Source: a virus. From it: a stretch of DNA of 37,340 nucleotides. Of this stretch, positions 6,500 to 35,915 are shown one piece after another. A model generated the notes under the pieces. It was not told the origin of the DNA. It saw only the letters and a program-made list of their open reading frames with translations, and searched no databases. Positions within the stretch are counted from its first letter, which is position 1, and every line of letters begins with the position of its first letter. The stretch lies in the IMG/VR virus record IMGVR_UViG_3300008448_000266, positions 1 through 37,340 of that record; one strand, written 5' to 3'. The position numbers were made by a program, and so were the translations under genes.

Positions 6500-8353
6500 A
6501 TGAATATCGAACAAAGTATCTTGTCGGATGTTACCGTATACCTTAAGTATGCTAAGTATGTCCCTGAAAAAAACAGGCGTGAAACCTGGGAAGAACTCGT
6601 AACTCGTAATAAAAATATGCACTTGGAAAAGTTTCCTCAATTAACTGAGGAAATCGAGGCAGCATATAAATACGTTTACGATAAGAAAGTACTCCCATCA
6701 ATGCGCTCAATGCAATTTGCAGGTAAACCAATTGAAATAAACAATTCACGTATTTTCAATTGTTCTTATTTGCCAATTGATGATTACAGAGCTTTTTCTG
6801 AAATTATGTTTTTGTTACTTTCTGGTTGTGGGGTTGGATACTCTGTTCAAACACACCACGTGGAACAATTACCTGAAATTAGAAAACCACTAAAATCAAA
6901 ACGTTACCTAGTGGGTGACTCTATTGAAGGATGGGCCGATGCTGTCCGTATGTTAACTAAAGCTTATTTTGGTTTTACATCCACTGCCCCATTATTTGAT
7001 TTTAGAGACATCCGTCCTAAAGGTGCATCTTTAATTACCGTTGGAGGTAAGGCACCAGGTCCAGAACCATTGAAAATTGCCCTAGTACATATGCAAGCAA
7101 TTTTGGACCGTAAAAACGATGGTGAAAAGCTAACTACACTAGAATGTCATGATATTATCTGTCATTTGGCCGATGCTGTATTGAGCGGAGGAATTCGTAG
7201 GGCTGCTTTAATTTCCTTATTTAATTTGGATGATGAGGATATGTTGACTTGCAAATTCGGAAACTGGTGGGAAAATAACCCACAACGTGGCCGTGCTAAC
7301 AATTCAGCGGTATTACTTCGTAACAAAATTGACAAAGACACATTCTTGAATCTTTGGAAAAAAATCGAGGCATCAAACAGTGGAGAACCTGGTTTCTTAT
7401 TTACAAATGATAAAGATGCCGGAACTAACCCATGTGCCGAAATTAATTTGAAAGCAAACCAATTCTGTAACTTGTGTGAAATCAATGCATCCGATTTGGA
7501 AACACAAGAGGAATACAATGCAAGAGCTAAAGCTGCTGCCTTTATTGGTACATTACAAGCTAGCTACACTGATTTCCATTATCTAAGAGATGTTTGGAGA
7601 AAAACAACAGAAAAAGAGGCATTATTAGGTATTGGAATGACCGGTATTGCATCCGGTGCTATTTTCAAATTAAGTATGAAAGAGGCAGCAAAATCAGCTT
7701 GTGAAGAAAACGAAAGGGTAGCAGGTATTTTAGGTATTAACAAAGCAGCCCGCGTTACTACCGTAAAACCATCCGGTACTACATCTTTGGTATTAGGTAC
7801 CTCATCTGGTGTACATGCTTGGCACGATGATTACTATATGCGCCGAATCCGTTTAGGTAAAAATGAGGCATTATATTCTTACCTATCTATTTACCACCCA
7901 GAAATGCTTGAGGATGATGTGTTCAAACCAACTATCCAATCGGTATTGTCGATTCCACAAAAATCACCTGAGGGTTCAATTACCCGTAGTGAATCTGCTT
8001 TGGAAATGTTGGAAAGAATTAAAAAACTCAACAAAGAATGGATTAAACCTGGTCACAGAAGAGGATCCAACATGCACAACGTGTCTGCTACTGTAACAAT
8101 TAAAAAAGATGAGTGGGGACAAGTTGGTGATTGGTTGTTTGATAATAAAGAATACTTCACCGCATTATCATTCTTACCTGAGGACTTAGGAACATATGTT
8201 CAGGCACCTTTTACTACTATCACAAAACAGGAATTTGATGAGGCTGTTAAATCACTACATTCAATTGACTTGTCAAAAGTTGTTGAAATTGATGATAATA
8301 CAGCATTAATGGATCAAGCCGCTTGTGCTGGTGGAGCGTGCGAAATCGCCTAA
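6500..8353 (+). CDS. nrdJ: Class II (adenosylcobalamin) ribonucleoside-triphosphate reductase
   Basis: 617 aa, of the monomeric RTPR type. It reduces ribonucleotides to deoxyribonucleotides using B12. Residues correspond to the Lactobacillus enzyme: NCSY with C88 and FCNLCE with C323 as the redox pair, NPCAEI (310-315) with radical C312 flanked by N310 and E314, and the C-terminal CAGGAC pair C609/C614. C312 to C323 is 11 residues, as in RTPR (C408 to C419). It is shorter than RTPR (739 aa). The C-terminal pair is normally recharged by thioredoxin, and two thioredoxin-like genes lie downstream (15224, 19353). It is the last gene of the replication operon, followed by a terminator. Confidence 0.9.
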   Translation: MNIEQSILSDVTVYLKYAKYVPEKNRRETWEELVTRNKNMHLEKFPQLTEEIEAAYKYVYDKKVLPSMRSMQFAGKPIEINNSRIFNCSYLPIDDYRAFSEIMFLLLSGCGVGYSVQTHHVEQLPEIRKPLKSKRYLVGDSIEGWADAVRMLTKAYFGFTSTAPLFDFRDIRPKGASLITVGGKAPGPEPLKIALVHMQAILDRKNDGEKLTTLECHDIICHLADAVLSGGIRRAALISLFNLDDEDMLTCKFGNWWENNPQRGRANNSAVLLRNKIDKDTFLNLWKKIEASNSGEPGFLFTNDKDAGTNPCAEINLKANQFCNLCEINASDLETQEEYNARAKAAAFIGTLQASYTDFHYLRDVWRKTTEKEALLGIGMTGIASGAIFKLSMKEAAKSACEENERVAGILGINKAARVTTVKPSGTTSLVLGTSSGVHAWHDDYYMRRIRLGKNEALYSYLSIYHPEMLEDDVFKPTIQSVLSIPQKSPEGSITRSESALEMLERIKKLNKEWIKPGHRRGSNMHNVSATVTIKKDEWGQVGDWLFDNKEYFTALSFLPEDLGTYVQAPFTTITKQEFDEAVKSLHSIDLSKVVEIDDNTALMDQAACAGGACEIA

Positions 8354-11763: not shown

Positions 11764-12540
11764 ATGAAAATAAGTCATGAAGTTCCTTTATGTTTATTAG
11801 AGGATAGTTTAGGTTTTAATGATTATGATTATGCCCTAGTGCATTTACTAGACAAAGATGAGGACTATGTTGATTTCTTTATGAAAGCAAAACAACAAGG
11901 TCGTTATATTATTTTAGATAATTCACTACATGAATTAGGAGAGGCATATCATGATAAAGGTTTATTACATTGGGTTGATAAATTGCGTCCTAATGAATTT
12001 ATTGTTCCTGATGTATGGGAAAATACAAATGCATCTATTGTTAATGCTAGAAAATGGGCTACAATTGAATTGCCTGAAGAAGTTACTAAAGTAGCAGTTG
12101 TTCAAGCTCAAAACTTTTTAGATGCTGTTGTTTGTTATCAAACATATAAAGATTTAGGTTATAAAAAGATTGCTTTTTCATATGGTGCTGAATATTATTT
12201 AGATCATTCTAATCATCCTAATAAAAACTTAGCTAAATCATTAGGTCGTATTCAAGTAATAAGTAGAATGTATGAAATGGGTTTGATTGATCCTAATGAC
12301 AGGGTACATTTATTAGGCTGCCAGGTACCACAAGAATTTAGTTGGTACAAAGATGCTGGATTTATTGAAACTATTGATACATCAAATCCTATTATGGCAA
12401 CTTTAGATGGTATTAAGTATGGTAGAAATGGTTTAACTGAAAAACCAAAATCTAATATGAATAATAATTTTTATATCACCGATATAGATTATGATTTATT
12501 GGATTATAATATATCAATATTTAGAGAATTATTAAAATAA
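11764..12540 (+). CDS. dpdA: DpdA/TGT-like DNA 7-deazaguanine transglycosylase
   Basis: 258 aa. It resembles the tRNA-guanine transglycosylase TIM barrel: ILDNSLHELGE (50-60) carries a candidate catalytic Asp (D52); FIVPDVWEN (79-87) and KIAFSYG follow; DRVHLLGCQVPQEF (179-192) then TIDTSNP (203-209) match the TGT 'LMGVG...FD..P' region, with D205. The TGT zinc cysteine set is not evident. Phage DpdA enzymes of this superfamily exchange guanine in DNA for a deazapurine. The same operon encodes QueC, QueD and QueE, with FolE nearby, which makes DNA modification the likeliest role. A tRNA role cannot be excluded from sequence alone. Confidence 0.62.
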   Translation: MKISHEVPLCLLEDSLGFNDYDYALVHLLDKDEDYVDFFMKAKQQGRYIILDNSLHELGEAYHDKGLLHWVDKLRPNEFIVPDVWENTNASIVNARKWATIELPEEVTKVAVVQAQNFLDAVVCYQTYKDLGYKKIAFSYGAEYYLDHSNHPNKNLAKSLGRIQVISRMYEMGLIDPNDRVHLLGCQVPQEFSWYKDAGFIETIDTSNPIMATLDGIKYGRNGLTEKPKSNMNNNFYITDIDYDLLDYNISIFRELLK

Positions 12541-12543
12541 GTT

Positions 12544-12699
12544 ATGAATAAAGTATTAAAAATCGTTTACAAATGTACCATTGGGATTAATATCCTAGCA
12601 GGTTTAGTTAGTATTATTAACCACAACTATGTTTTGGGAATTAACCAATTTCTAGTTGCTTGGTTTATGTTTATGTATTATAATGAAAGAAATAAATAA
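12544..12699 (+). CDS. 51-aa small membrane protein
   Basis: Begins MNKVLKIVYKCTIGINILAG. It has two hydrophobic stretches (CTIGINILAGLVSII and INQFLVAWFMFMYY) and ends NERNK. It starts 3 nt after the transglycosylase with AAGTTATG context. Function unknown. Confidence 0.6.
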   Translation: MNKVLKIVYKCTIGINILAGLVSIINHNYVLGINQFLVAWFMFMYYNERNK

Positions 12700-12702
12700 G
12701 TT

Positions 12703-12930
12703 ATGGAAGAAATGTTATCACTTTATGATTACTTAGGTAAAGCAGCAGGTAGAGAATTAGGAAACCAAGTTTACAAATCCGCTAGTGCTAAAAAAATCCA
12801 AGTAACAGAAAAACACGTATCAAATCCTGTTTATTCAGGTAAAATTTTAATGTATCCAAAATCATTTTTGGACAGTTATTTTAACCCTCAACCAGTGAAC
12901 AATTATGAACACGAAGACTTACCCTTCTAA
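12703..12930 (+). CDS. Small hypothetical protein with SSB-like C-terminal tip
   Basis: 75 aa. It opens MEEMLSLYDYLGKAAGRELG, and YSGKILMYPKSFLDSYF precedes a short tail ending YEHEDLPF. That end matches the acidic-LPF tip of this phage's gp32 (DDDDLPF) and the (D)DLPF/(D)DIPF tip of bacterial SSBs, which recruits replication and repair proteins. It may compete for, or recruit, SSB-interacting proteins (inference). It lies inside the deazaguanine operon. Confidence 0.7.
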   Translation: MEEMLSLYDYLGKAAGRELGNQVYKSASAKKIQVTEKHVSNPVYSGKILMYPKSFLDSYFNPQPVNNYEHEDLPF

Positions 12931-12934
12931 ACCA

Positions 12935-13066
12935 ATGAAAGATATTAATCCTGCTTGGGAAGCTGAGATTAAAAAACAATTAGATGCTATTTGGGAAAAT
13001 CGTTATCGCCTTAGCTTGTCTAATTTAGAAATGTTATGTAGATTAGCAAACAAAACAAAATTATAA
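12935..13066 (+). CDS. 43-aa hypothetical protein
   Basis: Begins MKDINPAWEAEIKKQLDAIW and ends LEMLCRLANKTKL; amphipathic and helical. It lies between tightly packed genes (4 nt after the previous stop, 1 nt before the next ATG). Function unknown. Confidence 0.6.
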   Translation: MKDINPAWEAEIKKQLDAIWENRYRLSLSNLEMLCRLANKTKL

Positions 13067-13067
13067 T

Positions 13068-13403
13068 ATGGAACCAAATACATTTTTACACAATGGATCA
13101 TCTTATGCTTTAGGTACATCAAACGCAACTATCCTTTCTAACCCTAGCAGTTATGCTTTAAACACACCAATTTCACAATCATTTAATTTAATACCACAAA
13201 ACACAGTTATGCAAAACAAAGTAGCAGTTTTCAAAGTAACAAGAGACGAAAACAACAAAATCACAGACACTAAGTTTATTAAAGAACTTTGGGTAGAAAC
13301 AAAAAATCAATCAGTAGAATTTCAAGTAGCTAGAGATAAAGATTTAGCTGACTATGATGCTAACGATTTATTTATTAAAACAATTTACACAGTAACATTT
13401 TAA
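13068..13403 (+). CDS. Hypothetical protein
   Basis: 111 aa. The first 45 residues are low-complexity Ser/Asn/Thr (SSYALGTSNATILSNPSSYAL contains two SSYAL repeats), followed by a beta-like half (KVAVFKVTRDENNKITDTKF ... FIKTIYTVTF). Its stop shares the A of the queC ATG. Function unknown. Confidence 0.7.
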   Translation: MEPNTFLHNGSSYALGTSNATILSNPSSYALNTPISQSFNLIPQNTVMQNKVAVFKVTRDENNKITDTKFIKELWVETKNQSVEFQVARDKDLADYDANDLFIKTIYTVTF

Positions 13404-14311
13404 TGAATAAACAAGCAGTATTGTCATTAAGTGGAGGTATGGATAGCTCCACGTTGTTGCTTCATCTACTTGCCAATGGCTATGAAGTGACAGCACTGTC
13501 TTTTGATTATGGACAAAAACATCGAGTTGAACTTGAGCGTGCTCAAGATTTAGTAAACTATTTAAATTTACACTTATTAACTAAAAACCATCCTCCATTA
13601 CCTAAAGGTGTTAGTATTGAGCAAGTACTTGGTAAACAACCTATTAATTACCAAGTAATTAAACTTGATGGATTGAGCCAACTACTCAATTCAGCACTTG
13701 TAACAGGTGGGGCTGAAGTTCCTGAAGGCCACTATGCTGAAGAAAATATGAAAGCAACTGTCGTACCTAATAGAAACAAAATATTTAGTAGTATAATTCA
13801 GGCAGTAGCCTTATCAATAGCAGATGCTAAAAACACGGACGTTCATATTGCGATGGGTATTCATGCTGGTGATCACGCTATTTATCCTGATTGTCGTCAG
13901 GAGTTTAGGGATATTGATTATCAGGCCTTTGTTGCTGGGAATTGGAATGCTGAAAGAGTTAGTTACTATACTCCTTATATAAACGGAGATAAATACTCTA
14001 TTTTAGAAGATGGTCTAAAATGTTGCGAAACATTAGGGGTTGATTTTGATGAAATATATAAACGTACAAATACATCTTATAAACCAATGCAACATTCAGT
14101 TTATTGGGAAAATGAACATGGTGAAACACTTCATTCAGTTGAATGGTTTAGTGATTACAAATCAGCATCTTCTGTTGAACGAGTAGAGGCATTTATTAAA
14201 TTAGGAAGAAAAGATCCTGTATCTTATGCCGATGAATTTGGCCCAGTAACTTGGGAGTACGTAAAAGAGTACGTATCGTCCGTTTTAGATGATTACCAAA
14301 AAACAGTATAG
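13403..14311 (+). CDS. queC: QueC-like 7-deazaguanine ligase lacking its zinc cysteines
   Basis: 302 aa, against about 220-230 for usual QueC. QueC turns 7-carboxy-7-deazaguanine into preQ0 with ATP and ammonia, through an amide. The P-loop SGGMDSS (10-16), SFDYGQKHRVEL, VPNRNKIF (121-128) and YPDCRQEF (161-168) are classic QueC. The zinc site is not: TCY is replaced by TSY (S225), and the CGxCxxC motif aligns with DYKSASS, so the ligand positions become D251, S254 and S257. Extra length lies in an insert around 60-115 and in a C-terminal tail from 265. The enzyme may stop at a different product or bind no metal (inference). Confidence 0.8.
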   Translation: MNKQAVLSLSGGMDSSTLLLHLLANGYEVTALSFDYGQKHRVELERAQDLVNYLNLHLLTKNHPPLPKGVSIEQVLGKQPINYQVIKLDGLSQLLNSALVTGGAEVPEGHYAEENMKATVVPNRNKIFSSIIQAVALSIADAKNTDVHIAMGIHAGDHAIYPDCRQEFRDIDYQAFVAGNWNAERVSYYTPYINGDKYSILEDGLKCCETLGVDFDEIYKRTNTSYKPMQHSVYWENEHGETLHSVEWFSDYKSASSVERVEAFIKLGRKDPVSYADEFGPVTWEYVKEYVSSVLDDYQKTV

Positions 14312-14504
14312 AAAATCCCAACCTTATCCCCAAATGTATATTGTGGTAAACAAAGCTGGAGAAGTATTCTCTGGCTTTGTACAAGGTTCTATTCAATGGT
14401 CCTATAATTGGTCTAATGCAAAACCACTATTTGAACAAAACACATCTTGGCTCCTGTCTCTAAATCCAGGAGCCGAGGTAATTAAAGAAGAAGAAATTAT
14501 ATGA
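14289..14504 (+). CDS. Small hypothetical protein
   Basis: 71 aa. The core MYIVVNKAGEVFSGF ... WSYNWSNAKPLF looks like a small beta domain seen in other phages; function unknown. ATG 14289 overlaps queC by 23 nt; an in-frame ATG at 14334 gives the bare core and is an alternative start. It overlaps the next gene by ATGA (14501-14504). Confidence 0.68.
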   Translation: MITKKQYRKSQPYPQMYIVVNKAGEVFSGFVQGSIQWSYNWSNAKPLFEQNTSWLLSLNPGAEVIKEEEII

Positions 14505-14737
14505 AAAAATTACATGAACAAAAAAGTATTATTGATCCTGAGAAGGTAATCAAAGTAGAACCGAAAATGGTTAGAGAAGATTTTAAACATCCAGATGCTA
14601 AAAAACACCAATTAGTTAGTTTTATTAAATCGGGTGTTAGAATAATTGGTTACACCTTTTTATTTTTTGACATTACTATGGCCGCAGTAATACTAATTGC
14701 AAGTGAGGCAATAGGGGTTTTAGAAGAATTAGTATAA
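14501..14737 (+). CDS. Small membrane protein
   Basis: 78 aa. The N-terminal half is charged and soluble (PEKVIKVEPKMVREDFKHP), followed by a hydrophobic segment around 45-70 (IIGYTFLFFDITMAAVILIA) and a short EELV end. Single pass, perhaps a hairpin. Coupled to the previous gene by ATGA. Function unknown. Confidence 0.7.
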   Translation: MKKLHEQKSIIDPEKVIKVEPKMVREDFKHPDAKKHQLVSFIKSGVRIIGYTFLFFDITMAAVILIASEAIGVLEELV

Positions 14738-14741
14738 TAAT

Positions 14742-15221
14742 ATGGCACAATCATACTTAAATTTTAAGCAAAACTTAAATGAGTCTGATCAAAAACTTTT
14801 AGAAATTGGACAACTTGTTGACCCATATATTAAAGATTTTATGTTTAATGAAGTAGGAAATACTATTTCTACCAATTTTAAAGATGATCAACATAATGAT
14901 ATTAGTGTTAGATTTCATAAATTTAAAAAAGAATCTAGTGGTTATGAAGTAGAATTCACAATTAATAATAAAAGTGCTGAAGCATTTAAAACAGATACAA
15001 AACATTTTTTTAAAATAATATCTACTGTTACACATGCTATAAATAAATTTATTGAAGTTTATAACCCAACACAATTATTCATTGAAGGAATGGATAAACC
15101 AAGTAAAGAAGGACAAAAAAATATAATATGGTTACAATATATTAAAGTTAATTTGGATGCTACTGATTATGTAATAGGAAACCATAAAAATGGATTTATG
15201 ATTCAAAAAAATACAAAATAA
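14742..15221 (+). CDS. Hypothetical protein
   Basis: 159 aa. The helical N-terminus (YLNFKQNLNESDQKLLEIGQ) leads to an alternating alpha/beta domain (ISVRFHKFKKESSGYEVEF, FFKIISTVTHAINKFIEVY, FIEGMDKPSKEGQKNIIW). No motif recognised. It lies 2 nt upstream of the thioredoxin gene. Confidence 0.72.
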   Translation: MAQSYLNFKQNLNESDQKLLEIGQLVDPYIKDFMFNEVGNTISTNFKDDQHNDISVRFHKFKKESSGYEVEFTINNKSAEAFKTDTKHFFKIISTVTHAINKFIEVYNPTQLFIEGMDKPSKEGQKNIIWLQYIKVNLDATDYVIGNHKNGFMIQKNTK

Positions 15222-15223
15222 AT

Positions 15224-15463
15224 ATGAAAAAATTAATATATTTTAGCGCTGGCTGGTGTCAGCCGTGTCGTACACTAGGTCCTATTATGGAACAAGTACG
15301 AGAAAAAATACCAGTAGAAAAAATTGATGTTGATAATGCTCCAGCAGTTGCGGCCGCTTATAATGTCCGTAACATTCCAACCGTAATTCTTGTGGAAAAC
15401 GGAGAAGAAATTCGTAGATTTACAGGTGTAAAACCGTTAAACGATATCTTAAATTTTATATAA
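15224..15463 (+). CDS. Thioredoxin
   Basis: 79 aa, a minimal thioredoxin fold: active site WCQPC (11-15), cis-proline NIPT (P51), FTGVKPLNDIL at the end. It is shorter than E. coli TrxA (109 aa) because the first strand and helix are missing. A likely use is to reduce the C-terminal cysteine pair of the class II reductase. It lies 2 nt before queD. Confidence 0.88.
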   Translation: MKKLIYFSAGWCQPCRTLGPIMEQVREKIPVEKIDVDNAPAVAAAYNVRNIPTVILVENGEEIRRFTGVKPLNDILNFI

Positions 15464-15465
15464 AA

Positions 15466-15927
15466 ATGAATAAATATATTTCAACAAAAGTATTTGATGG
15501 ATTCAGTTGTGTGTTCCGTCAATGGAAAGCAGAGGGTACACACTGTAAATTCCTTCATGGTTATGGAGTAAGCTTCAAAGTATGGTTTGAGGGTGAACTT
15601 GATGAAAGAAATTGGGTTTGGGACTTTGGAGGTATGAAACGTGCCAAAGGAACTATCGATGGTATGAATCCTAAAGAATGGATGGACTATATGTTTGATC
15701 ATACTCTAATTATTGCCGAAGATGATCCATATTTGGCTGGATGGAAAGCTATGGGTGAACATGGATTGGCTCAAGTAAGAGTTATTCCTGCTGTCGGTGC
15801 TGAACAATTTGCTAGATTTATATATGAAAAACTTAATACATTTATTAATGAAGAAACTAATGGACGTGTTAAAGTTATTCAAGTAGAATTTATGGAACAC
15901 GGAAAAAACAGTGCAATTTATAAATAA
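15466..15927 (+). CDS. queD: QueD-like 6-carboxytetrahydropterin synthase
   Basis: 153 aa. It converts dihydroneopterin triphosphate to 6-carboxytetrahydropterin, the second step of deazaguanine synthesis. It has FDGFSCVFRQW (10-20), then THCKFLHGYGVSF with the catalytic Cys four residues before the first His (CxxxH), DFGGMK, and FDHTLIIAEDDP with the catalytic Asp-His pair. In E. coli QueD the zinc is held by the His of FSAAH and both His of HGH. Here these align with Phe, His and Tyr, so two of three ligands differ. I recall the same FRQW/HGY form in other phages, so it is probably a stable subfamily, not decay. Confidence 0.8.
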   Translation: MNKYISTKVFDGFSCVFRQWKAEGTHCKFLHGYGVSFKVWFEGELDERNWVWDFGGMKRAKGTIDGMNPKEWMDYMFDHTLIIAEDDPYLAGWKAMGEHGLAQVRVIPAVGAEQFARFIYEKLNTFINEETNGRVKVIQVEFMEHGKNSAIYK

Positions 15928-15932
15928 TAAAA

Positions 15933-16748
15933 ATGGATAATACTAAAGTAACAGAAAAACAATGGAACATCCAGGAACCTGGTCGTATCACAGATTATAA
16001 TAAAAAATTACCTGTACTAGAGGTTTATACATGTGTTCAATCAGAGGGATCACGTCAAGGTAGACCCACAGTGGCAATCAGAACAACTGGTTGTACCCAC
16101 AGATGTTGGTTTGGTGCCGGTGGTTGGTGTGATTCTTGGTACACGAGTATTCACCCTGAAAAAGGTATTTATACCTTTAATGACATTATTAAAATCTATG
16201 ATGAAAACCCTCATATTAGAGAAATGATGTTGACTGGTGGTTCACCTACTATGCAACCTGACCTTTGTAATGAATTAACTCACTTTGCTTATGAGAGAGG
16301 TATTTTCATTACTATTGAAACTGAAGGATCACATTTTATTAAAACAGATCACCAAATTGGTTTAATTTCTTTATCACCTAAGTTTAGTAATTCTGTTCCT
16401 AAGCTTGATGTTAATACACCAATGGGTAAGTTAGTTGACCAAAAAATGATTGATCAACACAATAAATTCCGTTTAAATTATGAAGCAATGCAAATGATGA
16501 TGGAATATCACGGTGATTATCATTTTAAACCTGTATGGGATGGTACTGATGAAAACTTTAATGAAATTGAAGAATTTAGATTAAAGATGGATATTCCAAA
16601 ATGGAAAACCTGGTTGATGCCTGCTGGTGATACTAGAGAAACATTAATTGAAATGTATCCTATCTCAATTGAAAAATGTATGCAAGTAGGTTATAATTGG
16701 ACTGGTAGAGACCACATTATTGCTTACGATACTAAAAGAGCAGTTTAA
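15933..16748 (+). CDS. queE: QueE-like 7-carboxy-7-deazaguanine synthase (radical SAM)
   Basis: 271 aa. A radical SAM enzyme that rearranges carboxytetrahydropterin to carboxydeazaguanine. VYTCVQSEGSRQGRPTVAIR (31-50) is the usual QueE opening. The cluster motif is C54-x3-C58-x7-C66, unlike the canonical CX3CX2C. MLTGGSPTMQP (99-109) is the SAM-binding GGEP motif with Ser for Glu. It is longer than most QueE (about 210-250 aa). It follows queD by 5 nt and shares a TAATG overlap with the thioesterase gene. Confidence 0.85.
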   Translation: MDNTKVTEKQWNIQEPGRITDYNKKLPVLEVYTCVQSEGSRQGRPTVAIRTTGCTHRCWFGAGGWCDSWYTSIHPEKGIYTFNDIIKIYDENPHIREMMLTGGSPTMQPDLCNELTHFAYERGIFITIETEGSHFIKTDHQIGLISLSPKFSNSVPKLDVNTPMGKLVDQKMIDQHNKFRLNYEAMQMMMEYHGDYHFKPVWDGTDENFNEIEEFRLKMDIPKWKTWLMPAGDTRETLIEMYPISIEKCMQVGYNWTGRDHIIAYDTKRAV

Positions 16749-17149
16749 TGGACTTACTTTCAACCCACCCAGTTAAAAAACTAGATTTAGGCTTTCACGG
16801 CAATCTATTCGGCGGCAAATTGCTTAGCTGGATAGATGCCGCTGTTGCCGCTTATGCAATGGAAAAATGCAGATCACAAAATATGATTACAATTGCCATT
16901 GATGAATGTGTATTTAAAAAACCTGCCCGGGAAAAAAACCTAGTAAAAATTTATGCCGAAATGGCTAAAGTAGGAAATACATCTGCTACCTTTAGAGTAG
17001 AGGCAAGAGCCTATAATGTATTTAGAGGAGATGAAGTTACTTTATTATCTACCAACATGACATTTGTTAGAGTAGATGATGAAGGGATGCCTATCTCAAT
17101 ATCCAAACAGGTTAAAGACCAATTTTACACACCCGAATCAAAATTATGA
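16748..17149 (+). CDS. YciA-like hotdog acyl-CoA thioesterase
   Basis: 133 aa. NLFGGKLLSWIDAA (19-32) is the hotdog thioesterase signature with candidate catalytic D30. It also has ECVFKKPAREKNLVKIYAE and the strand TSATFRVEARAYN. It would hydrolyse acyl-CoA thioesters. An unusual metabolic gene for a phage, placed between queE and a membrane protein gene and coupled to both by short overlaps. Its substrate and purpose are unknown; lipid or envelope remodelling is one guess. Confidence 0.82.
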   Translation: MDLLSTHPVKKLDLGFHGNLFGGKLLSWIDAAVAAYAMEKCRSQNMITIAIDECVFKKPAREKNLVKIYAEMAKVGNTSATFRVEARAYNVFRGDEVTLLSTNMTFVRVDDEGMPISISKQVKDQFYTPESKL

Positions 17150-17550
17150 TATCATTAATATTATGTGCATTGGCAGGAGCCTTAAATGCCACCTACGAAA
17201 TTTTATTTGTAAGCTTTAAATATAGCATTTTCAGCAAATTAAATCCTCAATACTGGGACCCTAAAACATCCTGGGTATACAAATGGAAATATCCTTTAAG
17301 ACCGGCTACCAATCGTTGGTATTATTTTGGGTTTATTCCCCGTCATGAGGAAAGGTTTCCTTATTCATCCACTATTTTTGTTTGGGCAACTGATGCCTGG
17401 CATTTATTTAAGGCAATAATGCTGGTATGTTTGATGTCGGCAATGGTTTTATATTCACCTATTATTACACCCTTTGTTGATTTCTTTTTACTTTATGTTG
17501 CTTTTACATTTGTTTTTACAATTTTTTATGATTATATTTTAAGACGATGA
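17146..17550 (+). CDS. Membrane protein of unknown function
   Basis: 134 aa. An N-terminal hydrophobic segment (ISLILCALAGALNATYEILFV), a polar aromatic loop (WVYKWKYPLRPATNRWYYFGF), and two C-terminal hydrophobic segments (AIMLVCLMSAMVLY and FVDFFLLYVAFTFVFTIFY). About three membrane passes. ATGA overlaps on both sides. Adjacency to the thioesterase may hint at a lipid-related pair (inference). Confidence 0.72.
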   Translation: MISLILCALAGALNATYEILFVSFKYSIFSKLNPQYWDPKTSWVYKWKYPLRPATNRWYYFGFIPRHEERFPYSSTIFVWATDAWHLFKAIMLVCLMSAMVLYSPIITPFVDFFLLYVAFTFVFTIFYDYILRR

Positions 17551-18794
17551 ATCGATTAGACGAACAATACCAAAGATTACTTCAAGACATTATTGAATTT
17601 GGAGTAGAAAAAAAGGATAGAACAGGAACAGGAACTAAATCTTTATTTGGTTATACTATTAGACATAATATGAGAAATGGTTTCCCATTACTTACAACCA
17701 AAAAAATGGCTTGGAAACAAATAGTAACAGAGTTAATATGGTTCTTAAGAGGTGATACTAATATCAAGTATTTAGTTGATAATGATTGTCATATTTGGGA
17801 TGGTGATGCGTATAAGAATTATGCCGCTAAAACATCGATGGATGCTGATGGACAATTTACAAAAGAAGAATTCATCAATAAAATCAAAACAGATGATAAG
17901 TTTGCTAAGAAGTGGGGTGACCTTGGTAGAATCTATGGGGCGCAATGGAGAAGTTGGGACACCAGTATTCCAGTAGACCAAGTTGTAGAAGTAAGTGATG
18001 ACGGTGAATTTGAACTAGAATACAATTCAATAGACCAAATCCAAAACCTAATCAATGAACTTAAAACAAATCCTGACTCAAGACGATTAATGGTTTCGGC
18101 TTGGAACGTAGGTGAATTAGACCAAATGGTATTACCTCCTTGTCATTATGGATTTCAAGTTTATACTAGAGAGTTGACATTTGCTGAACGTTTAAACTTA
18201 TTAGGTAATATTAAAGCAGAAGATATAAATAAGGATTGGTTTGAAAAAAATAATACTCCTAAACGAGCAATCTCTTTAATGTGGAATCAAAGATCGGTTG
18301 ACACCTTTTTGGGTCTTCCCTTTAATATAGCCAGCTATGGTTTATTACTTGAGATTATTGCTAAAGAAGTTAATATGGTACCTGATGAATTGATTGGTAA
18401 TTTAGGTGATACTCATTTGTATTTGAATCATATTGAACAGGCTAAAGAACAAATTGGTAGAGATTATACATTAGATGAACGACTTAATATGGTTTCTGAG
18501 GAAATACAAAAAGAATTTAGTAATGGTATAGTTAATTTACCTAATTTTCCAAACACTCCAGTTTGGAGTGATGGTGGGAAAATGTCCTGTTTAGATGATT
18601 TTGGAGTACCTCGTAGAACAAGAGAACCATTTGAATTACCTAAATTGAAAATAAATACTGAATTTTGGCAAACAGAATCAGGTGAATGCGGAATAGGGCC
18701 TTTAAAAACAAATTTGATGGGATTTGAAATTGACGATTTTACTTTAGAAAACTATCAATCACACCCAACAATTAAAGCACCCTTGTCAAATTAA
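17547..18794 (+). CDS. thyA: Thymidylate synthase ThyA with insertions
   Basis: 415 aa, against 264 in E. coli. It makes dTMP from dUMP. DRTGTGT (24-30) contains the phosphate-binding Arg; also present are LIWFLRGDTN, the SRR pair near 179-180, LPPCHYGFQ with nucleophile C199, LPFNIASYG with N260, and GDTHLYLNH with H290. Extra sequence is inserted after FQVYTREL (about 209-240) and in a long C-terminal part (about 303-390). All key residues are present, so it should be active. It is last in the deazaguanine operon. Confidence 0.93.
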   Translation: MNRLDEQYQRLLQDIIEFGVEKKDRTGTGTKSLFGYTIRHNMRNGFPLLTTKKMAWKQIVTELIWFLRGDTNIKYLVDNDCHIWDGDAYKNYAAKTSMDADGQFTKEEFINKIKTDDKFAKKWGDLGRIYGAQWRSWDTSIPVDQVVEVSDDGEFELEYNSIDQIQNLINELKTNPDSRRLMVSAWNVGELDQMVLPPCHYGFQVYTRELTFAERLNLLGNIKAEDINKDWFEKNNTPKRAISLMWNQRSVDTFLGLPFNIASYGLLLEIIAKEVNMVPDELIGNLGDTHLYLNHIEQAKEQIGRDYTLDERLNMVSEEIQKEFSNGIVNLPNFPNTPVWSDGGKMSCLDDFGVPRRTREPFELPKLKINTEFWQTESGECGIGPLKTNLMGFEIDDFTLENYQSHPTIKAPLSN

Positions 18795-18795
18795 A

Positions 18796-18827
18796 TTTGG
18801 TTTTATTAAATTATTTTATTATATTTA
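18796..18827 (+). promoter_or_regulatory. Promoter P7
   Basis: TTTG 18796-18799 (ATTTGGTTTTATT), 20-bp spacer, TATATTTA 18820-18827. The ATG is at 18842, after a 14-nt gap ending AAAAAGTT. No terminator hairpin is seen between thyA and this promoter. Confidence 0.7.
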
Positions 18828-18841
18828 CAAAATAAAAAGTT

Positions 18842-19147
18842 ATGACATATGAAAATTTTCTAAAAGTAATTTTACAATTACAAAAACAAGACAGAATTAT
18901 AGATAACCTCTATAAAAATAATGTTGACTTGATTGAGTTTGTAGATCCTTACCACGGCATTATACAAACTCTCATGAAAGAAATCTACGGCGAGGAAGGA
19001 GTTGATTGGTTTAACTGGTTCTGTTATGAAAATGATTTTGGAACAAAAGGATTAGAGGCATGGGATGAAAATAAAAATCGAATCTGTTACAGTCATGAAA
19101 CACTGTGGCAATATTTAGAAACACTTAAAAAAGAAAATGGAAAATAA
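18842..19147 (+). CDS. Hypothetical phage protein
   Basis: 101 aa, helical. It has DPYHGIIQTLMKEIYGEEG and VDWFNWFCYENDFG, then CYSHETLWQYLETLKK. It looks like a protein common in large phages but without a known role. It is first gene of the operon leading to folE and dcd, and overlaps the next gene by 11 nt. Confidence 0.75.
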   Translation: MTYENFLKVILQLQKQDRIIDNLYKNNVDLIEFVDPYHGIIQTLMKEIYGEEGVDWFNWFCYENDFGTKGLEAWDENKNRICYSHETLWQYLETLKKENGK

Positions 19148-19340
19148 TTTTAAACCAGACTCGATTGTACAAGCAATCATTGATAAGTTTGCCGCTAGAG
19201 CAAAAATGGGAAAAGAAAAATACGGTGTTACTATGGACCGTGATGATTTAGAATTTTGGGATTGGTTAAACCATTTTCAAGAGGAATTAATGGATGGTAT
19301 AGTATATGCTGAAAAATTAAAACAACAAATTAAAAAATAA
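19137..19340 (+). CDS. Small helical protein, possibly MazG-like
   Basis: 67 aa: FAARAKMGKEKYG, then DDLEFWDWLNHFQEELMD and GIVYAEKLKQQ. The EExxD helix and KYG pattern recall short all-alpha NTP pyrophosphatase-like phage proteins that trim nucleotides. A full set of metal ligands cannot be confirmed, so the function is tentative. Its nucleotide-metabolism neighbours agree with the idea. Confidence 0.6.
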   Translation: MENNFKPDSIVQAIIDKFAARAKMGKEKYGVTMDRDDLEFWDWLNHFQEELMDGIVYAEKLKQQIKK

Positions 19341-19352
19341 TATTTATACGAT

Positions 19353-19646
19353 ATGAAACGTATAACACCAGAACAATTTGAATCATATTTAAAATTTGAA
19401 GACCATTTCTATGCTTTCTTTTCTTCCGATACTTGTAGACATTGTCAAACAATCTCACCGGTTTTAGAAAAAGCATTTTCCTCTTCAAAAACACCATTAT
19501 ATAATGTGAATCAAGAAGATCCTTTTTTAAATGAGGAAATGGGTGTTGAATTTTACCCAACAGTTTTAGAAGTTAAAAATGGAAAAGTTATAAAAAAATA
19601 CGTAGGTTTTAGCAGATTAGTTCATGAATACCAAAATTCTATTTAA
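19353..19646 (+). CDS. Thioredoxin-like protein
   Basis: 97 aa. FFSSDTCRHCQTISP has a CxxC site (C28-R-H-C31), and EFYPT carries the cis-proline (P69). CRHC differs from the WCGPC/WCQPC of classical thioredoxins, so redox potential and partner may differ. It is the second thioredoxin-type gene in the window and overlaps the phosphoribosyltransferase by 23 nt. Confidence 0.8.
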   Translation: MKRITPEQFESYLKFEDHFYAFFSSDTCRHCQTISPVLEKAFSSSKTPLYNVNQEDPFLNEEMGVEFYPTVLEVKNGKVIKKYVGFSRLVHEYQNSI

Positions 19647-20142
19647 CGAGCAGCAAATTCAAGATGCTGTAAAAACAATTTCTTACGATATAAACACCAC
19701 CACAGATTACTGGAGTGAAAAAAATGTATTTGTTGGAGTACTAACAGGTGGTTATATGTTTTATTCTGATTTGGTAAAACAAATCAAATTTCCTATTGAA
19801 TGTGATTTTATCCGAACCAAATCATATGTAACAAATCAATCCCAAGTTAAACCTGTGGTAACCAAAGATTTAGAGATAGATGTAGAGGAAAAAAACATAT
19901 TCCTAATCGATGACATTCTAGATTCAGGCAATACAATGAAATTTTTATTGAATCACTTTCTAAGCAAAAAACCACTTAGTATAAATATTGTAACCTTATT
20001 AACTAGAGAGGGAATAAAGTTTGAAAATAGATTTGGAAAAATGTATACTGGTTTATATATTGAGGATGACAGTTGGGTTGTAGGATACGGAATGGATGAT
20101 AACGGTTTGTATCGCAACACCCCTTATATATTTGTAAAATAA
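19624..20142 (+). CDS. Hypoxanthine phosphoribosyltransferase-like purine salvage enzyme
   Basis: 172 aa. The PRPP-binding loop is NIFLIDDILDSGNT (91-104). FVGVLTGGYMFYSDLVKQI matches the first conserved loop of HPRT, and DFIRTKSY and the C-terminal DDSWVVGYGMDDNGLYRN segment fit the purine-binding end of the family. It would join hypoxanthine or guanine to PRPP to give IMP or GMP. It lies 8 nt before folE, whose substrate is GTP, so it may feed that pathway (inference). Confidence 0.85.
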   Translation: MNTKILFNEQQIQDAVKTISYDINTTTDYWSEKNVFVGVLTGGYMFYSDLVKQIKFPIECDFIRTKSYVTNQSQVKPVVTKDLEIDVEEKNIFLIDDILDSGNTMKFLLNHFLSKKPLSINIVTLLTREGIKFENRFGKMYTGLYIEDDSWVVGYGMDDNGLYRNTPYIFVK

Positions 20143-20149
20143 GTTTTAT

Positions 20150-20848
20150 ATGACTAACGATAATAAAAAAACATTTACCCTCGATTTAGAGGTAGTTAAA
20201 ATGGGTTATGCCAATGGAATTGCTCCTGGTTTCCCACTTACTGAAAAAGAAAAATGGTCTATGGTAGACGAAGCAGCAGAGGCATATGGTAAATTCTTAG
20301 ATGCTTTAGGTTGTGATTGGAGAAATGACCCCAATTCCTCCGATACTCCTAGACGAGTAGCAAAAGCATATGTATTTGATCTATGGAAAGGTAGATACGA
20401 TTCAATGAGTGATATTACCTCATTCCCATCAGATGGTTATGATGGTATTGTAATTGAACGTAATATTCCTCTAACTAGTATGTGTTCACACCACCACCAA
20501 ACAATTGGAGGTGTAGTTCATATTGGTTATGTAGTAGGTGAAAATGGTTCTGTAATTGGTTTAAGTAAATTAAATCGTATTGTAGAACATTTTGGACGTA
20601 GGGGTGCTATTCAAGAACAATTAACATCCGCTATTCACCAAGCAGTAGATAAAATTTGTGAAAACAACAAAGGTGTTATTGTCACTGTAGTTGCAACTCA
20701 CAATTGTGTTTCCTGTAGAGGTGTAAAACACCAAGGTGCTTCAATGGTTACCACCAAAGCCTCTGGAGTATTTTTAAACAATGAAAACCAAGCACGTAAA
20801 GAATTTTTTGATTCATTAAAAATAAACAACGGAGGACATCAGATATGA
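20150..20848 (+). CDS. folE: GTP cyclohydrolase I
   Basis: 232 aa. It converts GTP to dihydroneopterin triphosphate, the first step toward deazaguanine (and folate). DTPRRVAKAYVFDLWKG (65-81) and IPLTSMCSHHHQTIGGVVHI supply zinc ligands C112 and H115; THNCVSCRGV supplies C186. GLSKLNRIVEHFGRR and the C-terminal MVTTKASGVF are conserved. Unlike the QueC and QueD variants, its metal site is intact. Its last codons contain GGAGG ahead of the next start. Confidence 0.93.
   Translation: MTNDNKKTFTLDLEVVKMGYANGIAPGFPLTEKEKWSMVDEAAEAYGKFLDALGCDWRNDPNSSDTPRRVAKAYVFDLWKGRYDSMSDITSFPSDGYDGIVIERNIPLTSMCSHHHQTIGGVVHIGYVVGENGSVIGLSKLNRIVEHFGRRGAIQEQLTSAIHQAVDKICENNKGVIVTVVATHNCVSCRGVKHQGASMVTTKASGVFLNNENQARKEFFDSLKINNGGHQI
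20831..20835 (+). promoter_or_regulatory. Unusually good Shine-Dalgarno for dcd
   Basis: GGAGG lies 9 nt before the dcd ATG at 20845, inside the end of folE. Most genes here have no such site and start in A-rich context, as is usual in Bacteroidota, so this is an exception. It may also just be the Asn-Gly-Gly codons of FolE. Confidence 0.4.
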
Positions 20849-21351
20849 TTTTAAACGCAGAACAAATAATGGAGCAAGGTCTAATTACTATAGACAATGC
20901 TTATGGAAAACCTGCTCAAGTAGGTTATGATTTATCTATTAAAGGGGTAAATAAAGTTGGAGGTAGAGTTGGTAAAGTATTGGTTGATAAAACTGAACTT
21001 AACACTCATACCCCTGTTGAAAAAACTAATTTAGATGGTAAATCTGGATTTTTATTATATGCTGGAGTTTATGATATGATTATGAATGAGGGTTGCAATA
21101 TTCCCTCTAACAAAGTAGGTTTAGTTAGACAACGTTCATCATTAATGAGAAATGGAGCCATTATTACCTCTAGCATTTTTGATCCAGGATTTAAAACAAA
21201 TAATGTAGGTACTTATATGATTGTGTTTGAAACTATTTTTATTGAAGAAAATGCTAGAGTAGCACAAATGTATTTTCATGAATGTGAACCTGTAGCCCAA
21301 GACAAATTATATAATGGTCAATGGCAAAACGATAAACAAAGAAATAAATGA
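20845..21351 (+). CDS. dcd: dCTP deaminase / dUTPase family protein
   Basis: 168 aa. AQVGYDLSIKGV (24-35), RQRSSLMRNGA (95-105), SSIFDPGFKTNNVGTYMIVFET (from 109) and RVAQMYFHECEP are the conserved blocks of the Dcd/Dut trimer fold. E129 sits where Dcd has its catalytic Glu. It would supply dUMP precursor for thymidylate synthase. It overlaps folE by 4 nt. Pure dUTPase activity cannot be excluded. Confidence 0.85.
   Translation: MILNAEQIMEQGLITIDNAYGKPAQVGYDLSIKGVNKVGGRVGKVLVDKTELNTHTPVEKTNLDGKSGFLLYAGVYDMIMNEGCNIPSNKVGLVRQRSSLMRNGAIITSSIFDPGFKTNNVGTYMIVFETIFIEENARVAQMYFHECEPVAQDKLYNGQWQNDKQRNK

Positions 21352-27863: not shown

Positions 27864-27867
<4 letters not shown>
27598..27867 (+). 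CDS. Small hypothetical protein
   Basis: 89 aa, basic N-terminus (MAKGKKAYIKKLTDP). MDELNYTLCEASDSGSVKVL and YYSSLGRALEAYCKSAV form a strand-then-helix unit seen again in the protein at 29952 (SLTEALNAYYVES). Function unknown. It overlaps groES by ATGA. Confidence 0.72.
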
Positions 27868-29767
<1,900 letters not shown>

Positions 29768-33153: not shown

Positions 33154-34605
33154 ATGCCAAATAAAGAGTTAGTGGATAAACACTATATCCCAAAAGACCA
33201 ACGTAAAAAAATCATGCTTTTATGTGATGATATTCGAGTTCACTCGGGTATTGCTCATATGGGGCGTGAATTAGTTATCAACACCTGCCATCATTACAAT
33301 TGGGTAAACATTGGTGGAGCCGTAAAACATCCTGAATCGGGTCAAAGATTTGATTTGTCTGAGGATACAAACAAACAAGCAGGAATTACAGATTCATCTG
33401 TAACACTTTATCCTGTAGATGGTTATGGAAATCCTGATTTGATTCGTCAATTGATTCAAATGGAAAAACCAGATGCTTTGTTTTTAATTACCGACCCTAG
33501 ATATTGGGTTTGGTTATTCCAGATGGAAAATGAAATTAGAAAACATTGCCCTATTATCTATCTAAACATTTGGGATGACTATCCGGCTCCATTGTACAAT
33601 GAAACATTCTATGAATCTTGCGATGCATTGTTAGGTATTTCAAAACAAACCGTCAATATCAATAAATTGGTATTAGGTGATAAATCAGGAAACAAAATTA
33701 TTGAGTATGTTCCTCATGGTGTAAATCACGAAGTATTTTATCCTATGAGTAAAGAAGAAAAATCAAATACTGATTTCTTAAACTTTAAAAAAGATTTATT
33801 TGAAGGAAAAGAATACGAATATTGTGTTTTCTTTAACTCTCGAAACATTCGCCGCAAACAAATCCCAGATACTATTTTAGCATTTAGACATTTTGTTGAT
33901 CGCTTACCTAAAGAAAAAGCAGAAAAATGTGTATTATTACTACATACCCAACCTGTTGATGAACATGGTACTGATTTAAATGCTGTTATTGAATTGTTAT
34001 GCCCTGAATACTGTAATGTTGTATTTACTAAAGGACCTATGGCTCCTCAACAATTAAACTGGTTATATAATATAGCAGATACTCAAATATTATTAACATC
34101 TAATGAGGGATGGGGATTGAGTTTAACTGAGGCTATACTTAGTGGTACTCCAATAATTGCTAACGTAACTGGAGGTATGCAAGACCAAATGAGATTTGTT
34201 AAGGATGGAAAATGGATGGAATTTGATGGAGAATTCCCTTCTAACCATAGAGGTACCATCAAAGAATGCGGTGAATGGGCATTCCCAGTATTCCCGACAT
34301 CTCGTTCATTAGTAGGTTCAGTACCAACACCTTACATCTTTGATGATAGATGTGAACCAGAAGATGCAGCCGATCAAATTGAGGCAGTTTATAACCTAGG
34401 ACCTGAGGAAAGACAGAGAAGAGGTAATACCGGACGTGAGTGGGCTTTAGGTGATGAGGCTGGGTTTACATCTGAAAAAATGGGTAACCGTGTAATTGAA
34501 TATGTTGATGAATTATTTGATACTTGGGAACCAAGAGAAAAATATGAATTCATTCTAGCAGGTGATTATAAGAAAAAAGTTTTAAACCATAAATTAATAT
34601 ATTAA
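33154..34605 (+). CDS. GT-B glycosyltransferase (GT4-like)
   Basis: 483 aa. Two Rossmann-type halves: IMLLCDDIRVHSGIAHMGRE at the N-terminus and the donor-binding C-terminal part with TSNEGWGLSLTEAILSGTPI, which contains the EX7E motif of GT4 retaining enzymes. VPHGVNHEVFYP is the typical hinge. It transfers sugar from a nucleotide donor; the acceptor is unknown (virion protein, DNA or host glycan). It starts in AAAAGTTATG context and abuts the next GT gene (TAATG). Confidence 0.85.
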   Translation: MPNKELVDKHYIPKDQRKKIMLLCDDIRVHSGIAHMGRELVINTCHHYNWVNIGGAVKHPESGQRFDLSEDTNKQAGITDSSVTLYPVDGYGNPDLIRQLIQMEKPDALFLITDPRYWVWLFQMENEIRKHCPIIYLNIWDDYPAPLYNETFYESCDALLGISKQTVNINKLVLGDKSGNKIIEYVPHGVNHEVFYPMSKEEKSNTDFLNFKKDLFEGKEYEYCVFFNSRNIRRKQIPDTILAFRHFVDRLPKEKAEKCVLLLHTQPVDEHGTDLNAVIELLCPEYCNVVFTKGPMAPQQLNWLYNIADTQILLTSNEGWGLSLTEAILSGTPIIANVTGGMQDQMRFVKDGKWMEFDGEFPSNHRGTIKECGEWAFPVFPTSRSLVGSVPTPYIFDDRCEPEDAADQIEAVYNLGPEERQRRGNTGREWALGDEAGFTSEKMGNRVIEYVDELFDTWEPREKYEFILAGDYKKKVLNHKLIY

Positions 34606-35915
34606 TGAAACCGTTATTTGTAATAAGTTGTCCTATTGATACCTACTCAGGGTATGGTGCTAGATCTAGAGATTTAGCTAAAGCAATCATCCAAACAGAT
34701 AAGTATGATGTTAAAATCATACCTCAGAGATGGGGTAATACTCCTTGGAATTTTATTCAAGACCATCAGGAAAAATGGGGATTTTTAAAAGATCATTTCC
34801 TACAACATCAGTTACCAAAACAACCTGAAATTTGGGCTCAGGTTACTATCCCAAATGAGTTCCAACCTGTGGGTAAATTTAATATCGGCTTTACTGCCGG
34901 TATTGAATCCACAGTATGTGCTGCTGATTGGATTGATGGAATGAATAGAATGAATGTAAACTTTGTTTCTTCTGAACATTCTAAAAAGGTATTTCAAGAA
35001 TCTTCATTTGAACAACGTGATCAAAATACCCAACAGTTAGTTCGTACTATTAAACTTGAAAAACCAGTTGAAGTGTTATTTGAAGGAGCAGATTTAGATG
35101 TATATAAGGCATTAGAATCATCAACAGAATCAGTTAAAACCTTTGATAAACTTGCTAGCATTAAGGAAGACTTTGCTTACCTATTTGTTGGTCATTGGTT
35201 AAATGGGGATTTAGGGGAGGATAGAAAGAATATTGGATTATTGATTAAAGCCTTCTACGAAACGTTTAAAAACAAAATGAAGAAACCTGCTTTAATACTA
35301 AAAGTATCTATGGGAGGTACCTCTTATTTAGATAGAGAAGAAATGTTGAAACGAATTGCCTTGATTAAAAAGACAGTTAATTCAATTAACCTACCTAACA
35401 TCTATTTGTTACATGGTGAATTCTCTGATGAGGAAATGAATTTACTTTATAATCATCCTAAAGTAAAAGCAATGGTTTCTTTAACTAAAGGTGAAGGATT
35501 TGGTAGACCATTATTGGAATTTACTTTAAGTAAAAAACCAATCCTAACTACAGGATGGTCAGGACATATGGATTTTCTAGATCCAGAATGTACTACTCTG
35601 CTTTCAGGTCAATTAACTAATGTTCATCCGAGTGCTGCTAATGACTGGTTATTAAAAGATTCACAATGGTTTTCCCCTGATCATGGTCAGGTAGGACATT
35701 ATCTAAGAGATATCTTTGAACATTATAAGAAGTATGTTCCCTTAGCTAGAACCCAGGCCCATAAGTCTAAAACCAGTTTTTCATTTGATAAGATGAAAGA
35801 ATTGTTAGATGAAAGATTGACAGCCCTAGTACCTGAATTTCCTAAAGAAGTTAAACTTCAATTACCTAAGTTAAAGAAAATTGAATTACCTAAACTAGAA
35901 AAAATAAATGGATAA
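34605..35915 (+). CDS. GT-B glycosyltransferase (GT4-like)
   Basis: 436 aa. CPIDTYSGYGARSRDLAKAI at the N-terminus and SLTKGEGFGRPLLEFTLSKK with an EX7E motif near the C-terminus. YLFVGHWLNGDLGEDRKNIG is typical of the donor-domain entry. The Lys/Leu/Pro-rich end (LQLPKLKKIELPKLEK) is a repetitive tail. It probably works with the upstream GT. Confidence 0.83.
   Translation: MKPLFVISCPIDTYSGYGARSRDLAKAIIQTDKYDVKIIPQRWGNTPWNFIQDHQEKWGFLKDHFLQHQLPKQPEIWAQVTIPNEFQPVGKFNIGFTAGIESTVCAADWIDGMNRMNVNFVSSEHSKKVFQESSFEQRDQNTQQLVRTIKLEKPVEVLFEGADLDVYKALESSTESVKTFDKLASIKEDFAYLFVGHWLNGDLGEDRKNIGLLIKAFYETFKNKMKKPALILKVSMGGTSYLDREEMLKRIALIKKTVNSINLPNIYLLHGEFSDEEMNLLYNHPKVKAMVSLTKGEGFGRPLLEFTLSKKPILTTGWSGHMDFLDPECTTLLSGQLTNVHPSAANDWLLKDSQWFSPDHGQVGHYLRDIFEHYKKYVPLARTQAHKSKTSFSFDKMKELLDERLTALVPEFPKEVKLQLPKLKKIELPKLEKING

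Follow-up and report, generated by a model that had tools for sequence, protein, structure and literature searches.

A guanine-type phosphoribosyltransferase tied to FolE in phage deazaguanine clusters, with a possible role in recycling guanine ejected from DNA

Why should a virus that encodes enzymes for making a 7-deazaguanine base also carry, directly beside the FolE gene, an open reading frame (ORF) for a hypoxanthine-guanine phosphoribosyltransferase (HGPRT)? The locus that raises this question lies in a 37,340-bp IMG/VR virus record (IMGVR_UViG_3300008448_000266; 32% GC), referred to here as the window and possibly a fragment. A first-pass annotation, made from the sequence alone, had listed FolE, QueD, QueE, QueC and a 258-aa candidate transglycosylase, and we find all five in their places on the plus strand, with the four preQ0 genes backed by Pfam and PHROG matches. 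That list omitted the HGPRT gene adjoining FolE, the member of the cluster that one would least expect. In base exchange of the TGT kind, one guanine is ejected for every deazaguanine inserted, while each deazaguanine made consumes one GTP at the GTP cyclohydrolase I step catalyzed by FolE. The reading we favor, and regard as reasonably probable, is a deazaguanine pathway for DNA in which HGPRT returns the ejected guanine to GTP.

The HGPRT gene ends 7 bp upstream of FolE. Homology of its product to the HGPRT 4qri extends over the full length (residues 7 to 171 in phmmer), and the phosphoribosyl pyrophosphate (PRPP) motif is present as IDDILDSG. This motif is intact in 217 of 217 phage phosphoribosyltransferases (PRTases) of at least 120 aa, and the phage enzymes invariably have the aspartate with which HGPRT contacts the purine N7. 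We describe the window ORF as HGPRT-like, with guanine as its presumed substrate. Among 50,697 records of deposited phages, 18 match an HGPRT of this type; no deazaguanine phage was recognized among them, and several resemble bacterial sequence. HGPRT is, however, present beside most relatives of the 258-aa protein, and many of the loci that lack it carry an unrelated XGPRT instead.

This second type of PRTase recurs in isolated phages. In Flavobacterium phage immuto, XGPRT adjoins FolE, and in Brevundimonas phage MaInes it comes just after FolE. In the jumbo Pseudomonas phage PA5oct (locus L165, 5995-7372), an XGPRT annotated as a hypothetical protein directly precedes QueE, with FolE located elsewhere in the genome; no TGT was found in PA5oct by Pfam, whose model also misses the DpdA of Vibrio phage VpKK5. 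Cellulophaga phage phiST likewise carries an XGPRT, elsewhere in its genome. In VpKK5, Sphingomonas phage MMDA13, and Stenotrophomonas and Pseudomonas phages, an XGPRT domain forms the first ~110 residues of FolE itself. This fusion directly precedes the annotated DpdA in VpKK5, MMDA13 and the Stenotrophomonas records, and a profile of 21 fused domains matches XGPRT structures over its length (7.9e-10).

To gauge specificity, loci were collected by PRTase sequence alone and then checked for their neighbors, with the main counts restricted to loci of at least 18 kb. QueE or QueC was present in all 30 XGPRT-seeded loci and in 35 of the 38 seeded with HGPRT, and DpdA in 28/30 and 28/38, respectively; of 34 DpdA-seeded loci in this size class, 30 carry a PRTase domain. 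FolE and the PRTase gene are no more than 300 bp apart in 97/115 HGPRT loci and 60/73 XGPRT loci, the latter in both gene orders. When near-identical PRTases (80%) were dropped, these figures became 30/49 and 40/61, short contigs included. Scanning with the fused domain returned 58 loci with 30 fusions, 26 of which are accompanied by Que genes and DpdA; the other four are on short contigs or lie where a contig ends. Thymidylate synthase, selected without regard to either feature, served as the control seed. Its 67 loci of at least 10 kb comprised four with both a PRTase and Que genes, none with a PRTase alone, two with Que genes alone and 61 with neither (Fisher's test, 2e-5). A Dcd-seeded scan yielded too few loci for use as a control. 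The rule is one-way: a PRTase predicts Que genes, but Que genes do not predict a PRTase.

Several observations weigh against our interpretation. A recognized DpdA is missing from 2/30 XGPRT and 10/38 HGPRT loci of at least 18 kb, the flanks being limited. The PRTase seeds were taken from deazaguanine phages, and loci sharing a clade cannot be counted as independent. No PRTase is seen in many deazaguanine phages, among them 9g and most of the QueC matches, nor was one found by Pfam in Campylobacter phage CP220, Chryseobacterium phage MA9V-3 or Bacillus phage BSP7. Since many small phage PRTases escape Pfam PF00156, absence by this model is weak evidence; the many deazaguanine phages without the enzyme mark it as an accessory part. 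Lastly, an alignment read by eye places arginine at the position of human Lys165, which contacts the purine O6, both in the window HGPRT and in its relatives (K165 was located with the human HGPRT motif). As this replacement is possibly conservative, our claim is for an HGPRT-like protein that works like HGPRT.

Would the base made by this cluster enter DNA? No Pfam family, TGT included, matches the 258-aa protein, and its one PHROG is unnamed (phrog_19058, 7.8e-42). Its AlphaFold2 model, computed with 65 relatives as input, reached a pLDDT of 96.3, and the top structural matches in VIA-align were archaeal TGT (1iq8, Z 17.4) and the DNA preQ0 insertase DpdA (7ui4, Z 17.2, rmsd 3.2 over 229 residues), at 13-14% sequence identity; in a comparison with viral models, a protein of Cellulophaga phiST aligned with a TM score of 0.85. 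On the strength of this model we are confident of a TGT/DpdA fold. A profile of the family retrieved nothing real from PDB sequences, and hhalign gave no significant match to E. coli TGT or, in a comparison with DpdA subfamilies suggested by the first-pass annotation, to DpdA1 of the 9g type (E 0.34, probability 0.2%), so that kinship to TGT and DpdA is visible by structure only.

Closer relatives were found by tblastn, with 36.5% identity to an immuto protein annotated as DpdA and 36.7%, over 90%, to a CP220 protein annotated as hypothetical; weaker matches occur in MA9V-3 and BSP7, both beside Que genes. Judged by these matches, the protein falls into the small DpdA type represented by CP220 and immuto, which we take to be the branch called DpdA3 in the 2023 literature. 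Across 11 divergent relatives, no variation is seen at D52, N53, D83, R162, H182, G185 and D205, and almost none at Q114; mapped by barrel order alone, the conserved residues would correspond to D102, D156, Q203, G230 and D280 of TGT. Cysteines are found only at positions 10, 124 and 186, and the zinc site of tRNA TGTs (CxCxxC..H) is missing. Nearly every relative has QueC, QueD, QueE and FolE within ~10 kb, which shows that the five-gene grouping is not chance. Pfam TGT had zero matches in four deazaguanine phages, even in VpKK5 with its annotated DpdA1, and this model therefore cannot exclude a phage DpdA. In CP220 and CPt10, 100% of dG is replaced by dADG (PMC8306585). The earlier proposal of a DpdA/TGT-like transglycosylase adjoining a complete preQ0 pathway is thus supported, both by the fold and by closest relatives in phages with Que genes or measured deazaguanine DNA.

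As to the identity of the base, alignment with E. coli QueC shows that the window QueC keeps its P-loop and active-site motifs (SGGMDSS, VPNRN and YPDCRQEF), and that the four zinc-cysteine positions are occupied by Ser, Asp, Ser and Ser in the window clade, including loci L133-L144, and in immuto. By regular expression, the four-cysteine motif is missing in 100 of 101 QueC relatives. With the zinc cysteines gone and the catalytic motifs kept, we view this protein as a zinc-less QueC variant. In 12 contigs of 99-269 kb from relatives, no QueF scored above the Pfam cut-off, and the long contigs contained no formyltransferase outside immuto; two sub-threshold QueF matches may be FolE, as phage FolE scores weakly on the QueF model. 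For the window, itself possibly a fragment, these results make a preQ1-type product unlikely. The simplest prediction, dPreQ0, is most likely the modified base, while dADG is possible if QueC stops early, a question on which the loss of its zinc cysteines may bear.

The gene identities, folds, conservation and linkage that we observe would fit the following cycle. FolE, QueD, QueE and QueC would convert GTP into a free 7-deazaguanine base, which the transglycosylase, a minimal TGT fold like those of CP220 and immuto, would put in place of guanine in the DNA of the phage itself, with every exchange releasing one guanine. HGPRT would join the released guanine to PRPP, and host kinases would convert the resulting GMP to GTP, the substrate of FolE, such that the purine ring is recycled. 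Beyond the window, we lean slightly toward the view that a PRTase dedicated to guanine recycling is part of phage DNA-deazaguanine systems. It would have been gained several times from unrelated types, in some cases becoming fused to FolE, and would sustain large-scale replacement without draining the guanine pool.

Other roles for the PRTase have to be considered. It is possible, albeit doubtful, that the enzyme draws on host guanine, hypoxanthine or xanthine in general to make GMP and GTP for FolE, rather than specifically on guanine ejected by DpdA: the same enzymes would serve both roles, and it is with FolE (or QueE), not with DpdA, that the PRTase is adjacent or fused. Yet nearly all the fusions have DpdA alongside where enough flanking sequence is present to judge, and ejected guanine, arising 1:1 with the demand of FolE, is the obvious source. 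Alternatively, the PRTase might act on the deazaguanine base itself, yielding a nucleotide that would be reduced, phosphorylated and polymerized, so that replacement proceeds via a modified dGTP. Such a route has been put forward in the past for Campylobacter phages (PMC6884629) and would fit full replacement, and the window does encode a ribonucleotide reductase upstream of the cluster (6500-8353, phrog_367). We nonetheless consider it unlikely and prefer recycling, because the N7-contacting aspartate is invariant in the PRTases, whereas 7-deazaguanines have no N7, and because CP220, with full replacement, has a transglycosylase homolog but no recognized PRTase.

The company of ThyA, Dcd and ribonucleotide reductase might also suggest that nucleotide-metabolism genes merely pile up in a large phage and that the link between PRTase and FolE is a by-product; since ThyA-seeded loci seldom have a PRTase, and those that do have Que genes, and since two unrelated PRTase types plus a fusion keep the same partner, we think this quite unlikely. 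A pathway serving queuosine or archaeosine in tRNA would be in keeping with the TGT fold of the 258-aa protein, the DNA base being a prediction; however, the protein has three cysteines and no tRNA-TGT zinc motif, and its relatives sit in phages with deazaguanine DNA (PMC8306585), making a tRNA role very improbable.

Base exchange carries a hidden cost of one GTP spent and one guanine ejected per inserted base, and if the recycling interpretation holds, a PRTase linked to FolE would account for the way phages meet it. By our arithmetic, full replacement in a ~160-kb genome of 32% GC would eject ~51,000 guanines per genome. The PRTase gene would then serve as a marker of heavily modified phages, and its presence would favor exchange in finished DNA over the modified-dGTP route; the bifunctional PRTase-FolE is an enzyme open to direct assay. 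While the preQ0/DpdA pathway itself is of an already-known type, the recurrent PRTase, in two unrelated types and a FolE fusion, is the new feature. It is unmentioned in the 2019 Nature Communications paper and the MMDA13 paper; prior mention in the 2023 DpdA3 or 2019 Campylobacter phage papers is possible.

Among known systems, immuto (MW353176) shares with the window a QueC that is 64% identical, as well as the related DpdA, FolE, QueD, QueE, ThyA and a GroES/GroEL pair nearby, and a guanine-type PRTase adjoining FolE. It differs in having QueF and a formyltransferase, in the XGPRT type of its PRTase, and in the position of DpdA after FolE. CP220 and CPt10 possess the transglycosylase homolog, but their pathway genes are scattered, no PRTase is detected by Pfam, and their QueC retains some zinc cysteines. 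Enterobacteria phage 9g has FolE, QueD, QueE and a transglycosylase, the latter being a longer DpdA1 without a detectable profile match to the 258-aa family, together with a Gat-QueC and no annotated PRTase. In VpKK5 and MMDA13, similar to the window, QueE, QueC, QueD, FolE and DpdA form one run with a guanine-type PRTase, which differs in being the XGPRT domain of FolE; their DpdA is of the DpdA1 type.

The cluster genes considered here (Table 1) all lie on the plus strand. A nearly gap-free run, in which neighbors overlap or almost touch, extends over 13068-21351 in the order QueC, small proteins, thioredoxin, QueD, QueE, 4HBT thioesterase, ThyA, second thioredoxin (19353-19646), HGPRT, FolE and Dcd. 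The transglycosylase had been proposed to open this operon, a description that fits only loosely. It does lie just upstream on the same strand, but another same-strand ORF stops 36 bp 5′ of it, and gaps of 162 bp (holding a short ORF) and 137 bp intervene before the run begins. A search for a Bacteroidota-type promoter motif gave a frequency no higher than chance.

Table 1. Features of the deazaguanine cluster in the window, with the evidence for each assignment
Feature	Position	Strand	Evidence
Putative DpdA-like DNA guanine transglycosylase (258 aa; minimal TGT barrel, zinc domain absent)	11764..12540	+	Predicted fold, tblastn, conserved residues
QueC (CDG to preQ0), four zinc cysteines all replaced	13403..14311	+	Pfam QueC 1.2e-36; alignment to E. 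coli QueC
Small thioredoxin-like protein, between QueC and QueD	15224..15463	+	phrog_22 1.2e-9; in nearly all relatives
QueD	15466..15927	+	Pfam PTPS 4.8e-15; phrog_2389 (QueD-like) 6.5e-41
QueE radical SAM enzyme	15933..16748	+	Pfam Radical_SAM 6e-7; phrog_2076 (QueE-like) 3e-47
4HBT-family thioesterase, overlaps QueE end	16748..17149	+	Pfam 4HBT 6.6e-17
HGPRT-like phosphoribosyltransferase	19624..20142	+	Pfam Pribosyltran 3.4e-24; phmmer to 4qri 8e-31
FolE, GTP cyclohydrolase I	20150..20848	+	Pfam 1.5e-42; phrog_2197 5.6e-58

With regard to the 4HBT thioesterase, the 4HBT protein FadM of E. coli likewise adjoins queC. Downstream of the cluster, a GroES/GroEL-like pair is encoded at 27864-29767, followed by two neighboring glycosyltransferases (33154-34605 and 34605-35915; phrog_2170), whose target could be DNA or the host surface. 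Some relatives of the 258-aa protein are found on contigs binned with bacteria, namely L128 in a Pelagibacter metagenome-assembled genome (MAG) and L126 and L127 in Flavobacteriales/Flavobacteriaceae MAGs, and these are probably phage contigs carried into the bins. Two of five such bacterial-bin contigs point to Flavobacteria as hosts, and the host of the phage probably belongs to the Flavobacteriia.

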